Shown here in pieces: positions 6,446 through 57,502 of a stretch of DNA of 64,000 bases. Numbering within the stretch: the stretch's first letter is position 1; the number at the start of each line of letters is the position of its first letter. The notes under the pieces are model-generated. The model was given only the letters and a program-made list of their open reading frames with translations. It did no database searches and was not told the DNA's origin. The DNA lies in NCBI RefSeq assembly GCF_000422245.1, contig NZ_ATHI01000026.1, positions 62,001 through 126,000 of the forward strand, given 5' to 3'. A program made the position numbers and the translations under genes. Source of the stretch: Alkalidesulfovibrio alkalitolerans DSM 16529. Its GTDB lineage: Bacteria; Desulfobacterota; Desulfovibrionia; Desulfovibrionales; Desulfovibrionaceae.

Positions 6446-6574
6446 CCCAGGCCGCTGAAAAGACGCCGTCTGCGGCGTTGCTGAGAAAGCGCCGATCCCT
6501 CGTGTATTTTTTGATGCACGTCGGGCCCGGCGCTTTTTTGCGCCTTGCATCCGATGTCTTTTCAGCGGCCTGGG
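6446..6574 (+). repeat. Palindromic 3'-end element, copy A (full length)
   Basis: This 129-bp element has perfect 18-bp terminal inverted repeats: CCCAGGCCGCTGAAAAGA at 6446-6463 and its complement at 6557-6574. Inside are AAAGCGCCG/CGGCGCTTT and an apical CGTGTAT/ATGCACG stem. The left unpaired segment contains GTCTGCGGCGTTGC; the right one contains TTGCGCCTTGCATC. The core CAGG begins 6 nt after the msrAB stop codon and is oriented with that gene. Confidence 0.9.
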
Positions 6575-11938: not shown

Positions 11939-12517
11939 ATGACCGGACACGACGACTCGGGCTTTCGCTTTTCGCTCTCGGACGAGGAGAAGACCTACCT
12001 CCTGGACCTCGCACGACTCTCCATCCTGCGTTGCCTTTGTGGCGGGGACGACGTGGTCGGCGAGGGGCCCCCGCCGCCGTCCAGCCAGACGCTTCAGGCG
12101 CACCTCGGGGCCTTCGTGACCCTGAAGATCAAGGGTTGCCTGCGTGGCTGCATCGGCCACGTCGTGGGCGACAGGCCGGTCTACGAGACGGTCTACGCCA
12201 TGGCCCGCCAGGCGGCGTTCCACGATCCGCGTTTCATGCCGCTCACGGCCGCCGAGGCCGAGGAGTTGGACATCGACATCTCCATCCTCTCGCCGCTCAC
12301 GCCCTGCCCGGACCCCGCGCGCATCGAGCCCGGCCGCCACGGTCTTCTGATCTCGCGCGGCAATTGTTCGGGCCTGCTTTTGCCCCAGGTGGCCACGGAA
12401 TACGGCTGGGACCGCGAGACCTTCCTGGCTCAGACCTGCCGCAAGGCGGGCCTGCCGCCGGATTGCTGGCGCGACCCCGCTACCCGCATATACTGGTTCG
12501 AAGCCGTCGTCTTTTAG
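11939..12517 (+). CDS. amrA: AMMECR1-domain protein (AmmeMemoRadiSam system protein A)
   Basis: The 192-residue cytosolic protein matches the AMMECR1 fold: FVTLKIKGCLRGCIGHV at 60-76 includes the signature LRGCIG, followed by FHDPRFMPLT, LDIDISILSPLTP, and GLLLPQVATEYGWD. In many prokaryotes it is encoded with a Memo-like protein and a radical-SAM enzyme; neither is present here. The biochemical role is not settled. It forms a run with cobA-hemD and purN. Its TAG stop is followed without a gap by palindromic repeat copy B. Confidence 0.88.
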   Translation: MTGHDDSGFRFSLSDEEKTYLLDLARLSILRCLCGGDDVVGEGPPPPSSQTLQAHLGAFVTLKIKGCLRGCIGHVVGDRPVYETVYAMARQAAFHDPRFMPLTAAEAEELDIDISILSPLTPCPDPARIEPGRHGLLISRGNCSGLLLPQVATEYGWDRETFLAQTCRKAGLPPDCWRDPATRIYWFEAVVF

Positions 12518-26977: not shown

Positions 26978-27289
26978 CACGACCCTCCGAGAGCATGGGG
27001 CAGGCGCAAGGCGCGCGAAAGGCCCGGACCCGACGCGCGCCTCACATGCGCGAAGGGTCGAAGCTTTTGCGGCCATGCGGTGGATGGGGCTCTCTCGGCA
27101 GCCAGTTGGCGCTCCATCGTTTCTCTCTACATGCGCACGGGTTTGGGGGCAAGGCGCGGAAAGAAGGGGCGAGAAAAGATACCCCCCTCCTTGTCAGGTT
27201 GCGCCGGTAACGATAAGAAATGCATGATCGTCATTCCAGAAGCCGTGGACCCGCTCGTGGCGTGAGAGGGTGCGGCGTGCGGAGGTTTT
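26978..27289. other. Divergent intergenic region, no gene recognised
   Basis: This 312-bp region separates the MCE operon (minus) from a histidine kinase (plus). It should hold both promoters. I could not identify convincing -35/-10 pairs, a sigma-54 site or a riboswitch, and no small ORF with a good ribosome-binding site. Confidence 0.5.
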
Positions 27290-28498
27290 GTGAGCGAGCT
27301 TGAGCGCCTGGGGACTCCGGCGAAATTGGACTGCCCAAGCGGGGCGGATTGCGCGACGTGTCCGGGGTGTCCGCGTCAGGTGCGCCAGCTCGACGAGGCT
27401 GCCCGAGCCGGGCGGCTCGGACTCTGGGAATACGACGCAGCGCTTGGGCGGGTCATCCTCGGGGCGGGCATGACCTTGGTCCTCGATCTTCCTCCCGACG
27501 CCAAGTCCCTTGATCTCAATGAGTTCGCTGCGCTCATCCATCCGGCCGACCGCAGTCCGGTCATGGCCGAACTGGAAGATGCCCTGCGAGGTGCGACGCC
27601 GCGCTTCGAGGCTGTGTTCCGGATTCTTCGCGGAGGGGAAGAGCCGCGCCACGTGGCCTTCTCCGGCTCGCCCGCCGTCGCGGACAGCCGCGTGCTCGCT
27701 TTTTCGGGAACCTGCGTGGACATGGACAGTCGGGTACGGGCCGAGTCCGCGCTGCGCGAGGCGCGGGAGGCGGCTGCGAGGGCCGAGAAGGCGCGCGACG
27801 AGTTTTTGGCCAACGCCAGTCACGAGCTGCGCACGCCCCTGCACGGCATCGTCGGCATGCTCCAGATGTCCCAGGACGCCAGGTCGCTCGACGAGGCGCG
27901 CGAGCTCGTGGGGCTTGCGCAGCAGGCGGCACGGCAGATGCAGCAGATCGTGAGCCGTCTGCTCGACCTGGCGCAGGTGCAAGCCAGGCCGCCGTCGGGC
28001 CAGTGTATCGAGTTCTCTCCGGCGAGCCTGCTTTCGGACATCGCCCGGAACGTGGCCGAGCGGTGCGCGGCCAAGGGGCTTTCCTTCGACGTGCGGCTGG
28101 ACGAATCGCTGCCGCCGGTGCTCGCGGGCGACGCTCACGGCATTGACAGAATCGTGCGCCACCTGCTGGACAACGCCGAGCGCTTCACCAGCGCGGGAGG
28201 CGTCAGGCTCGAAGTCTCCATGCACGGCCATGGAGGGGACGAGGCCGCGAACCTCCTGGTCGTCGTCTCCGACACGGGGCCGGGCATAGACTCCGGGCGC
28301 GTGGAGCAGATATTCGAACCCTTCGTGCTCGGCGAGGACGTGCTGACCAAGAGCGGCTCCGGCCTTGGCCTCGGTCTTTCCCTGGCCCGCCGCCTGTCCG
28401 AGAACATGGGCGGCCGCCTGTGGTGCGAAAGCGCGCCGGGCGAGGGCTCCACATTCTTCCTGCTCGCGCCCGTGCGCCGCGCCTCCTGCGGGGTGTAG
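27290..28498 (+). CDS. Soluble PAS-type histidine kinase with N-terminal cysteine cluster
   Basis: The kinase has 402 residues and no membrane segment. Near the N-terminus is C-x5-C-x2-C-x2-C (Cys15, 21, 24, 27). A PAS-like region covers about 30-150 (GRLGLWEYDAALGRVIL, FSGTCVDMDSRVRAE). HisKA has SHELRTP with His178; the ATPase domain has DNAERF, DTGPGID and GSGLGLGLSLARRL. The GTG start has GGAGG 5 nt upstream. No partner regulator is adjacent. The TAG stop abuts repeat copy D. The cysteines could bind a metal or iron-sulfur cluster, which is inference. Confidence 0.85.
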   Translation: MSELERLGTPAKLDCPSGADCATCPGCPRQVRQLDEAARAGRLGLWEYDAALGRVILGAGMTLVLDLPPDAKSLDLNEFAALIHPADRSPVMAELEDALRGATPRFEAVFRILRGGEEPRHVAFSGSPAVADSRVLAFSGTCVDMDSRVRAESALREAREAAARAEKARDEFLANASHELRTPLHGIVGMLQMSQDARSLDEARELVGLAQQAARQMQQIVSRLLDLAQVQARPPSGQCIEFSPASLLSDIARNVAERCAAKGLSFDVRLDESLPPVLAGDAHGIDRIVRHLLDNAERFTSAGGVRLEVSMHGHGGDEAANLLVVVSDTGPGIDSGRVEQIFEPFVLGEDVLTKSGSGLGLGLSLARRLSENMGGRLWCESAPGEGSTFFLLAPVRRASCGV

Positions 28499-28580
28499 CA
28501 GACCGTCCCCAAAGCGCCTCTGCCGCGTTGCTGCGGAAAGTTCAACACGCCTTGCATCTGACGCCTTTGGAACGGTCTGC
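28498..28580 (+). repeat. Palindromic 3'-end element, copy D (apical stems deleted)
   Basis: An 83-bp element whose first base is the last base of the kinase TAG stop. Arms GCAGACCGT and ACGGTCTGC pair perfectly, followed by CAAAG/CTTTG. Both unpaired conserved segments are kept: CTCTGCCGCGTTGC on the left and CGCCTTGCATCTG on the right. The middle and apical stems are replaced by a short AAAGTTCAAC loop. Confidence 0.85.
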
Positions 28581-38758: not shown

Positions 38759-39053
38759 GAGTTCTCCGGCCGGTGGAGAAGCAAGGAGCGTGCCTCGCTC
38801 CGACGGGCAGGGCGGGAGCTGCTGGTCTTTGATCTAATGCCCTGGAATGATTTGGCTTGAAAATCGAAAGCAAGAGGGCACAGGACATCGGGGCGGATGT
38901 TACCTTTGCGAAAGATTTACCATTCTGCAAAATTTGTCATTGGAAGACCATGTTTTTCTGCTCTATTTCTCAATTTTGAAAACAGAGGGGTGGGGGGAGC
39001 GGCTCCGGCCTCGAGAAACAGTCCCGGAACCGGGCGCGAAGAATGCTGGTAGG
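38759..39053. other. Leader of the sigma-54 activator plus AT-richer noncoding DNA
   Basis: The first 40 bp hold the likely sigma-54 promoter of the activator gene. About 38830-38985 is noticeably AT-richer than its surroundings. It shows no ORF with a ribosome-binding site on either strand and no clear TGT-N10-ACA activator site. It could encode a small RNA or carry regulatory sites, but nothing specific can be assigned. Confidence 0.4.
38781..38794 (-). promoter_or_regulatory. Probable sigma-54 (-24/-12) promoter of the NifA-type gene
   Basis: The minus strand reads GGCACGCTCCTTGC from 38794 to 38781: GG and GC are separated by exactly 10 bp, and CACG and TTGC match the consensus. The -12 GC is 23 nt before the ATG, giving a very short leader that still covers the CGGAGA site. 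Confidence 0.6.
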
Positions 39054-39087
39054 CGCGGCAGCGCAACAGACGGCGGCTTAGGGACGG
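39054..39087 (-). repeat. Palindromic 3'-end element, half copy next to copy E
   Basis: The minus strand has a second left arm, GCCGTCCCTAAGCCG followed by CCGTCTGTTGCGC, closely matching the left half of copy E and in the same direction. No right arm follows. It is a remnant in tandem with copy E. Confidence 0.6.
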
Positions 39088-39112
39088 CTTTCTCGTAAGT
39101 AGGTGTCCTTGC

Positions 39113-47669: not shown

Positions 47670-47708
47670 CCCGCAAACGCCGCAGACGGTGCCTTTGGAA
47701 CGGCCTGC
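47670..47708 (-). repeat. Palindromic 3'-end element, copy F (left half only)
   Basis: On the minus strand the motE TAG is followed without a gap by CAGGCCGTTCCAAAGGC and ACCGTCTGCGGCGTTTGC, the left arm and left conserved segment. The right arm is absent; a GC-rich inverted sequence (about 47648-47670) follows instead. Confidence 0.7.
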
Positions 47709-55936: not shown

Positions 55937-56261
55937 GCGTGTTCTCCCTGGTCTGGGGCGGTTTGCGGTCTGGCCTCGGACGTCTGCGCGCGTGGTCGGG
56001 CGTGGCGATTCAATCGACCATACGGCAGCAGGGCATATGGTGCAATGCATTCTCTAGAGGCGAGGCAATGTTGGCCGCGCAGCAGGACGGGAGGATAAAA
56101 TTGGCGACGTACAGGCTGCCGAAAAAAGGCAGCAAGCCCATCGTCGCCATTATGGTGTCTCGCGCCGACGTCAAAGCCGTGCTATGGGGTATCCACGGTC
56201 CGTGCGCCATGGGGCGCGCGACGCCGCAACGACGACAGCCAAACGGCAGGGGACAAACCGC
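55937..56261. other. Divergent intergenic region
   Basis: A 325-bp gap between the receiver/pseudokinase gene and the lipoprotein gene. It contains a small dyad CTGCC/GGCAG around GAAAAAA (about 56117-56133). Frames across it look like shadows. No promoter pair stood out. Confidence 0.4.
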
Positions 56262-56660
56262 ATGCTGGCGAGAACCATCCTTTCGACGCTGCTTGCGTTC
56301 GCGCTTTTGGGTTGCGCGGCGCACAGGCAGGATCAGGACGTGGAGCGCGAGATCGAGGAGCTTCGGGCCGCGCAGGAGACCATGGCCGCGCAACTGGCCG
56401 GGCTGGACGAGCGCTCCGCCCGCTCCGAGGCGCGCATCGCGGCCGAGGTGGAGGCGCTGCGCGAACAGATGGCCGAGTTGGCCGGGCTGCTGCGCAAGGC
56501 CCTGGAGGGCTTCACGGCCGAGGCCAAGGGCGACGCCGAGCGGATCGGCAGGCAGGCGCGGGAGAGCGCCCTGAAGAACCTGGAGGAATTGCTCAAGGCC
56601 TCCACCAAGCTCCTCGAACGGCTGAACCGTGAGTTGGAAGGTTCACTGGCCGAACCCTAG
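56262..56660 (+). CDS. Small coiled-coil lipoprotein
   Basis: The 132-residue protein has a lipoprotein signal with the lipobox ALLGC (Cys at about 18). The mature part is one long coiled coil (REIEELRAAQETMAAQLAGL, AEVEALREQMAELAGLLRKA, LLKASTKLLERLNRELEGSL). It could be a periplasmic spacer or peptidoglycan-associated lipoprotein; no specific family is recognised. AGGGGA lies upstream of the ATG. Its TAG stop overlaps the first base of repeat copy G. Confidence 0.75.
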   Translation: MLARTILSTLLAFALLGCAAHRQDQDVEREIEELRAAQETMAAQLAGLDERSARSEARIAAEVEALREQMAELAGLLRKALEGFTAEAKGDAERIGRQARESALKNLEELLKASTKLLERLNRELEGSLAEP

Positions 56661-56785
56661 CAGACTGTTGAAAAATCACCATCTGCTGCGTTGCCGCGAA
56701 AAATTCAGTCCCTCGCGTATTGGCAATACGCGTCGGGCCTGAATTTCTCTTGCGCCTTGCATCTGGTGCTTTTTGAACAGTCTGC
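56660..56785 (+). repeat. Palindromic 3'-end element, copy G (full length)
   Basis: A 126-bp element beginning on the last base of the lipoprotein TAG stop. Arms are GCAGACTGTT and AACAGTCTGC. The middle stem is AAATTCAG/CTGAATTT, and the apical stem CGCGTATT/AATACGCG around GGC. The conserved unpaired segments are CATCTGCTGCGTTGCC and TTGCGCCTTGCATC. All three stems differ in sequence from copies A, E and H but still pair. Confidence 0.92.
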
Positions 56786-56818
56786 AGCGCAGTCGTTGAC
56801 AGCATTTTTTTGACAGGC

Positions 56819-56886
56819 CCAGACTGTTTCGAAAAACACCCTTTGCCGCACGCAGTGGAGACGTTTTTTTCAGCCTCCTGAAACAG
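56819..56886 (+). repeat. Degenerate palindromic 3'-end element between copies G and H
   Basis: CAGACTGTTTCGAAAAAC resembles the left arm of copy G. CTGTTTC (56824-56830) pairs with GAAACAG (56880-56886), and a T7 tract lies inside. The conserved unpaired segments are mostly lost (CTTTGCCGC remains). It makes this gap a cluster of three related elements. Confidence 0.5.
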
Positions 56887-56897
56887 AATCCCACCCA

Positions 56898-57024
56898 GCA
56901 GGCCGCTCAAAAGGCGTTGGATGCAAGACGCAAGAAAGCGCCGGGCCCGACGCGTATAATGATATACGCGAGGGGTCGGCGCTTTCGCGGCAACGCAGCA
57001 GACGGCGTCTTTTCAGCGGCCTGC
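56898..57024 (-). repeat. Palindromic 3'-end element, copy H (full length)
   Basis: A 127-bp element oriented with uspA on the minus strand, 5 nt after its stop. Arms are GCAGGCCGCT and AGCGGCCTGC. The middle stem is AAAGCGCCG/CGGCGCTTT and the apical stem CGCGTATA/TATACGCG. On the minus strand the left conserved segment is GTCTGCTGCGTTGCCG and the right one TTGCGTCTTGCATCC. Confidence 0.92.
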
Positions 57025-57028
57025 CCAC

Positions 57029-57502
57029 TCAGGTTACGACCCAGACAGCACAATCCTTGGCATGGTGGACCACCCGCTTGGACACGCTGCCCAAAAGAAG
57101 CTCCTCGCGCGCGTTCTTGCCCTGGCGGCCGAGCACCAGGATGCTCGCGCCCAGGCGCTCGCGCTCGGCCAGGATGCAGGCCGAGATGGACGGGCAGTCC
57201 ATCTCCTTGACCAGCACGGTGACGTTTTCGGCCGGATGGCCGGTCTCCACCAGGAAGTCCCGGTATTCGTCGAGGTATGTCTGGGCCTCCTTGCGCTGCT
57301 CGGCCATCCAGCCCAGGCGCTTGGCTGGCTGGCCGCCGAAGTAGTCTGGATCGGGCTCCGCGATGACGTGCAAAAGGGTGATTGTGAAGTCGCGGCAGCC
57401 AAAGAGCACGCCCGCCACGTGGCCCACGGCCCGGCGCGAGTTGTCCGAGCCGTCCAGGGCGCACAGGACGTGCCGGTTGAAGGTCTCGTAGGTCGTACGC
57501 AT
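57029..57502 (-). CDS. Universal stress protein, UspA type
   Basis: A 157-residue single-domain Usp: HVLCALDGSDNSRRAVGHVA at 11-30 and ASILVLGRQGKNAREELLLG near 117-136, which fits the ATP-binding pattern G-x2-G-x9-G-S. It is therefore probably of the nucleotide-binding class. It follows the protein-kinase-like gene by 3 bp and is likely co-transcribed and co-regulated with it. Repeat copy H begins 5 nt past its stop. Confidence 0.9.
   Translation of the reverse strand: MRTTYETFNRHVLCALDGSDNSRRAVGHVAGVLFGCRDFTITLLHVIAEPDPDYFGGQPAKRLGWMAEQRKEAQTYLDEYRDFLVETGHPAENVTVLVKEMDCPSISACILAERERLGASILVLGRQGKNAREELLLGSVSKRVVHHAKDCAVWVVT

Follow-up and report, generated by a model that had tools for sequence, protein, structure and literature searches.

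The DNA analysed here, a 64,000-nt stretch of the Alkalidesulfovibrio alkalitolerans genome (the window), carries two complete copies of a hairpin repeat, G and H, arranged head-to-head between a + strand ORF (56184-56660) that ends in a TAG stop codon and a - strand ORF whose stop codon begins at 57029 (Table 1). Judged from its sequence, the latter is what we take to be a universal-stress-protein-like gene. The TAG of the upstream ORF shares its last base with the first base of G, and as G and H are in opposite orientation, 56660-57024 as a whole is itself a large inverted repeat. A copy is called + when CTGCTGCGTTGC lies within its 5' half, and scores refer to model R2, which was built mostly from elements of other lineages, yet had the cores of G and H among its input. 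A first-pass annotation had read three stems from these copies, and all of the stems it quoted were found in the window copies where it had placed them: the terminal arms pair as AGACTGTT/AACAGTCT in G and as AGGCCGCT/AGCGGCCT in H and A, the middle stem as AAATTCAG/CTGAATTT in G and as AAAGCGCCG/CGGCGCTTT in A, E and H, and the three variants of the apical stem are likewise present.

Table 1. Copies of the repeat in the window and the parts of copy G (positions of the window).
Feature	Positions	Strand	Basis
Copy A, complete	6447..6573	+	R2 match
Internally deleted copy, abutting a TAG stop codon	12514..12583	+	
Internally deleted copy, abutting a TGA stop codon	14541..14603	+	R2 match
Degenerate copy	26997..27104	-	R2 match
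Copy from which the middle and apical stems are deleted	28498..28580	+	R2 match
Fragment adjoining copy E	39016..39092	-	R2 match
Copy E, complete; first base of its left edge is part of the neighbouring gene's stop codon	39113..39238	-	R2 match
Single-arm fragment	47676..47707	-	
Copy G, complete 126-nt hairpin element	56660..56785	+	R2, 82.5 bits
G outer stem, 5' arm (terminal arm, A-run, sub-terminal pairs); also the left terminal inverted repeat	56660..56681	+	
G left conserved core TCTGCTGCGTTGCCGC, mainly unpaired, invariant between lineages	56682..56697	+	
G middle stem, 5' arm; covaries with 56739-56749	56698..56708	+	
G apical stem-loop CGCGTATT GGC AATACGCG	56714..56732	+	
G middle stem, 3' arm	56739..56749	+	
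G right conserved core TTGCGCCTTGCATC	56750..56763	+	
G outer stem, 3' arm	56764..56785	+	
G-H spacer, holding a degenerate piece of the same arm (CAGACTGTTTCGAAAAACACC...)	56786..56897	.	sequence
Copy H, complete 127-nt hairpin element	56898..57024	-	R2, 71.7 bits

The proposal that compensatory base changes maintain this fold was borne out by a covariation check on a larger set of copies. RNAalifold, given a structure-free alignment of 49 copies, predicted 40 pairs, 21 of which show changes on both sides. For 130 aligned copies with a FastTree tree, covariation was compared with a simulated null in which tree, composition and the substitutions on each branch are retained, a home-made version of the R-scape approach with ancestral states assigned by Fitch parsimony. 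Against this null 11 of the 44 proposed pairs reached E<0.05, compared with 0-1 when the 3' partner was slid by 1-3 columns, and an unrestricted test over all column pairs returned six pairs at E<0.05, five of them helix pairs. Watson-Crick cells made up 87% at the proposed pairs and 21-32% after sliding in the same 130 copies, 112 branch events replace one Watson-Crick pair by another with both sides changed, and middle stems of unrelated sequence (GCGCCGG, AGTTCAA, AATCCAG and CCGGTCAA) each pair. The copies have a mean pairwise identity of 73% and a median nearest-neighbour identity of 89%, which excludes copying from one recent ancestor as the cause of the conservation. Between lineages (33 elements) 78% of cells pair, and the covariation score is 0.40 versus 0.16 in shuffled data, with none of 500 shuffles reaching 0.40 and slid alignments scoring 0.06-0.17. 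We conclude that the fold of this repeat family is real and selected, and no artefact of copying. Its unpaired core, CTGCNGCGTTGC / TTGCGCCTTGC, is fixed between lineages, and together with the tree-aware and the cross-lineage covariation this is in agreement with the earlier suggestion of a selected structure recognised at its internal loops.

The two strands of the element are not equivalent in this fold. Mismatches that are G-T wobbles on the strand opposite G's + outnumber those that are G-T wobbles on the + strand: mapped on the tree and read on the + strand, pairs were lost to A-C 172 times and to G-T 119 times, and were regained from A-C 90 times and from G-T 29 times, these counts being of non-independent events because kin copies share history. 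The opposite strand was the more stable in 111 of 137 copies with RNA parameters and in 120 of 137 with DNA parameters, and among elements of other lineages in 70 of 74 and 74 of 74, respectively; the preference kept its direction when the fixed core was masked. All seven ERIC copies compared were also more stable on the same strand as the family. The opposite strand is therefore stabilised by G-T wobbles in every lineage, ERIC included, which argues that selection acts on one folded strand. Relative to the gene that ends with its stop codon at the element, this preferred strand is the antisense one, and selection is therefore not on a 3' UTR hairpin of that gene; the part of the first-pass annotation that envisaged an RNA under selection, such as a transcript that ends in G, is thus not favoured. 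The bias itself fits both single-stranded DNA and RNA of the preferred strand. A preference for one replication strand (of 119 copies, 78 have + on the G-rich one, p 9e-4) was set aside as uninformative, since orientation is tied to the upstream gene.

Pairing of this kind could in principle arise by mutation, with the arms of a palindrome corrected against each other via template switching and no selection on the fold. The copy at about 194950-195080 of G000:C27 (L342 2950-3080) agrees with such a process, as near 194980-195076 each of its arms has a core of the left type, CATCTGCCGCGTCGCCGCG ... CGCGGCAACGCAGCAAATG, which would result from copying one arm onto the other. However, arm correction would merge the two sides of the core, which are non-complementary yet intact in all lineages, and it predicts no strand bias between G-T and A-C mismatches where the observed bias is strong, and we consider a mutational origin very improbable.

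The repeat has the anatomy of a mobile element. A covariance-model search of the 3.2-Mb genome, with a model from 49 copies, found at least 145 full-length copies of about 126 nt above 60 bits among the 150 matches listed, so that, in the manner of MITEs, the unit is short (about 126-150 nt), non-coding, dispersed and present in high copy number. Contig G000:C14 starts within a hairpin element (L341 1-60); such hairpins may break assemblies, and copy number is perhaps underestimated. In 137 copies with flanks, the left flank is unconserved except for TA, which stands at the left edge of 33 copies versus 2.7 expected and on both sides in only a few. On the right side only there is a conserved extension, about 25 nt in length, that repeats the left arm in inverted form, and this right terminal inverted repeat peaks 25-26 nt past the hairpin. 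The element thus consists, in this order, of a left end, the core hairpin, an inner copy of the end and the right end. Terminal inverted repeats are clear in 19 of the 137 copies and decayed in the others. Direct repeats of 11-26 bp flank about six copies, mostly at palindromic, terminator-like targets, while shuffled pairings of flanks never gave duplications above 12 bp. At L068 1501-1626 the duplication is a palindromic, terminator-like sequence whose loop appears to be inverted (CGGGGGCCG-CACGG-CCCCCG versus CGGGGGCCG-TGCGG-CCCCCCG).

Some copies stand in larger arrangements. Direct tandem arrays were seen at G002:C64:313127-314126, C4:32423-32800, C62:25508-25969 and L030 2346-2717; some of their junctions share 2-5 bp, and other copies are spaced about 168 or 292 bp apart. 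At L011 2331-2845 a 260-bp unit has been tandem-duplicated that combines the element with a palindrome of another type (ends GGCGAGGCGT/ACGCCTCGCC). This second palindrome, perhaps a subfamily of its own, is found again at L014 2554-2678 and L051 2726-2850. A CRISPR-like array with repeat end GTGGATTGAAAC lies at the start of contig G000:C18 (L333).

The positions of the copies relative to genes bear on whether the host uses the fold. Of 130 upstream neighbour genes 81 read into the element, and in 29 of these the stop codon overlaps it by exactly one base, its first. Five further genes end at distance -12, where the element's own TGA (positions 10-12) seems to supply the stop codon. Such a bias towards gene 3' ends is what would be expected if cotranscribed copies formed a hairpin controlling the 3' ends or the stability of mRNAs and it were the RNA fold that is selected. 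Control of this kind, with an RNase E site, is reported for ERIC in Yersinia. ERIC is also reported to alter the stability of transcripts containing it (PMC2229807, PMC10969869), which likewise favours a function at the RNA level. However, insertion at the TA of a TAG or TAA codon regenerates TAG because the element starts with G, and this explains the abutment of stop codons without a host role. Against an RNA-level function we also count the better-pairing strand being antisense to the abutting gene, the absence of any match to the element in Rfam even at E<=1, and the fate of G and H in congeners: in G001 the site is empty, with the upstream TAG and the facing universal-stress-protein stop codon about 15 bp apart, and no copies were found at the corresponding site of G002. 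Furthermore, compensation is weaker on terminal branches of the tree, with double compensations to breaks at 36:82 on internal versus 71:290 on terminal branches (Fisher p 0.016), and breaks that leave no wobble on either strand at 22 of 82 and 113 of 290, respectively. The better-kept compensation on internal branches suggests selection for propagation rather than host use, the pattern expected of selection at the time of propagation followed by decay after insertion. An RNA-level function is therefore, in our judgement, rather unlikely.

What moves the element was sought in the genome itself and in its relatives. Y1_Tnp, DDE_Tnp_1, DDE_Tnp_1_2, DDE_Tnp_1_6 and DDE_3 are all absent from the host genome (searched with several small contigs masked). 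Among 15 relatives, four of these five families do not track copy number; PF01609 was searched in the host genome only. An end-pattern search of the host genome and 58 other genomes of the family found no element ends paired around a gene, and self-similar arms in 149 other loci marked further copies only, apart from one 780-bp candidate. Two candidates for an autonomous element were rejected: this one, from Brachymonas, contained no more than a small ORF next to another, decayed copy, and the interval between partial copies at 12517 and 14601 of the window is occupied by a large membrane-transporter-like ORF, the two copies being separate and internally deleted. These searches weigh directly on the possibility of a REP/RAYT- or IS200/IS605-type element moved by a Y1 HUH transposase that reads a strand-specific hairpin. 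Such a hairpin, the high copy number and the intergenic location all agree with it; however, besides the lack of Y1_Tnp in the host genome, Y1 genes occur mostly in copy-poor or copy-free relatives and in none of the copy-rich genomes G000, G002, G006, G011 and G029, and target duplications with inverted ends are unlike IS200/IS605. We regard this assignment as very improbable.

The same lack of the five transposase families would be expected if the mobilising enzyme had since been lost and the copies were neutral debris, with covariation that stems only from old master copies. Most right ends are decayed and the median nearest-neighbour identity of 89% is likewise in keeping with relics. In contrast, L041 and L225, and L051 and L228, are pairs of copies at different places that are 97-98% identical, L041 and L051 retain intact target duplications of 17-25 bp, and the insertions of G and H are species-specific. 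Near-identical copies with intact duplications, together with the species-specific G and H, argue for fairly recent movement, and complete decay to relics is improbable.

The family is widely but unevenly distributed. Copies were found in 35 of 59 related genomes, in a patchy manner that ranges from 0 to more than 59 copies, even between genera of one family. An exact search with the core pattern matched at least 120 stretches of DNA, which include the isolates Desulfospira joergensenii and Desulfobacter vibrioformis and metagenome-assembled genomes (MAGs) assigned to Desulfobacteraceae, Geobacteraceae, Gallionellaceae, Burkholderiales, Gammaproteobacteria and Bacteroidales, MAG assignments in which contamination is possible. 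The core thus recurs, fixed between lineages, in Desulfobacteraceae, Geobacterales, Beta- and Gammaproteobacteria and Bacteroidales MAGs. Matches at L105, L112, L146 and L178 have no convincing hairpin arms and are probably due to chance. Three queries against plasmids and one against phages gave no match to the element, which rejects a plasmid or phage home. In the open literature, searched by core letters and keywords, no description of the family was found, and for the multicopy classes of Geobacter metallireducens the repeat motifs given in the legend differ from the core (PMC2700814).

A relation to ERIC is apparent in the core. Copies of ERIC in E. coli and other enterobacteria were located with the published ERIC-PCR primers. 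On the strand equivalent to G's +, ERIC reads TGCGTTGgCTGCG, TCACTTAC-loop-GTAAGCTCC and CTTGCcGCCTT, where the family has TGCGTTGCTGC, TCACGTAC-loop-GTACGCTCC and CTTGCGCCTT. A structure model of 33 elements, built free of ERIC, matched six of seven ERICs over the repeat and on the same strand, with the Pantoea copy and one from Klebsiella matched over their full length at 25.6 and 19.5 bits, respectively. The ERIC of E. coli K-12 ranked second within a 50-kb stretch (13.4 bits, E 0.054), below a chance match of 15.2 bits, and as such the K-12 copy is by itself no proof of kinship. In the reverse direction, a sequence-only ERIC model run against 91 kb of foreign loci placed its four best matches within Desulfobacter and Bacteroidales elements, on the right strand and in the right register; the window copies, which are more diverged, were not found by it. 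In an hmmsearch of ERIC against the family, the scores of four of seven ERICs were equalled by 0-5 of 1500 shuffles and that of one by 17, and two were not significant. Since the link passes through Desulfobacter-type intermediates, we claim kinship and not membership of ERIC proper, and we consider it likely that the family and ERIC are homologous. The hairpin family to which G and H belong thus probably includes ERIC. The first-pass annotation, which is partly supported, had overlooked this likely kinship, as well as the TA edge, the extra inverted end, the target duplications and the empty sites.

On balance, we favour the reading that G and H are copies of a high-copy, non-autonomous, MITE-like element that moves by means of a folded strand read at the core. 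Pairing that is kept in changeable stems, a core that is unpaired and fixed, preference for one strand and selection at the time of propagation together favour a non-autonomous mobile element. An enzyme acting in trans would move it, inserting at TA sites, often those of TAG stop codons in this GC-rich genome, or in hairpin terminators. For propagation, the strand opposite G's + would fold into the three-stem hairpin and be recognised via the conserved unpaired core, and because recognition of the folded strand would go through the core, the stems would be free to change as long as pairing is kept, the core remaining fixed. The folded form would be DNA, either a transposition intermediate or a docking site, and the reader of the core would be a transposase. 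The absence of the five searched transposase families from the host genome and the decay of right ends in many copies stand against this mobile-hairpin model, and the length of the target duplications suggests a mechanism on double-stranded DNA, which has no obvious need for a strand-specific hairpin. A bolder extension, to which we give only a minor chance, would unite ERIC and these elements in one ancient, cross-phylum class of mobile hairpins whose folded single strand is read at the internal loop by a new enzyme; if true, such hairpins would represent a transposition route new to description. The findings also carry a caution for the automated discovery of non-coding RNAs, as multicopy, covarying intergenic hairpins can reflect selection for mobility and not host RNAs.

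Several known systems share part of these features. RUP, a pneumococcal MITE driven by IS630-Spn1, and other bacterial MITEs are likewise short and non-autonomous with inverted ends and a TA edge; RUP shares its ends with a cognate IS, whereas none was found for this family, and we are not aware of any MITE whose interior has a covarying core that is conserved between phyla. REP and REPIN sequences with their RAYTs are also intergenic hairpin repeats in hundreds of copies, but are 20-40 nt in length in contrast to the 126 nt of the family, in which no GTAG/CGTC tag was seen and whose host genome has no Y1 transposase. Integron attC sites resemble the family by analogy of working only, as imperfect hairpins that fold preferentially as the bottom strand, but no R/L boxes or cassette arrays were seen here and the conserved part is internal and not at the ends. 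Known since 1990-91, ERIC serves around the world as a tool for strain typing; to our knowledge, neither a mobiliser of ERIC nor a reason for its fold is known. In a cross-phylum family whose core is fixed, whose fold is strand-specific and whose presence is patchy, these questions become testable, by way of a core-reading protein or a gene that tracks copy number. ERIC (IRU or RU-1, about 127 bp) is like the family in length, as an imperfect palindrome with TA termini, and in its intergenic position near gene 3' ends (PMC2229807, PMC10969869), as well as in the core letters TGCGTTG[G]C, TCAC-TA-loop-TA-GCTCC and CTTGC[C]GCCTT. The arm and middle-stem sequences of ERIC are unlike those of the family, which has in addition an inner arm copy and a one-sided terminal repeat. 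ERIC is described from Enterobacteriaceae and Vibrionaceae (2024 review, PMC10969869), while the host range of the family extends far beyond Enterobacterales and Vibrionales. The family is ordinary as one more high-copy, palindromic, MITE-like repeat, and unusual in its cross-phylum core, its strand-specific fold and its probable kinship with ERIC.
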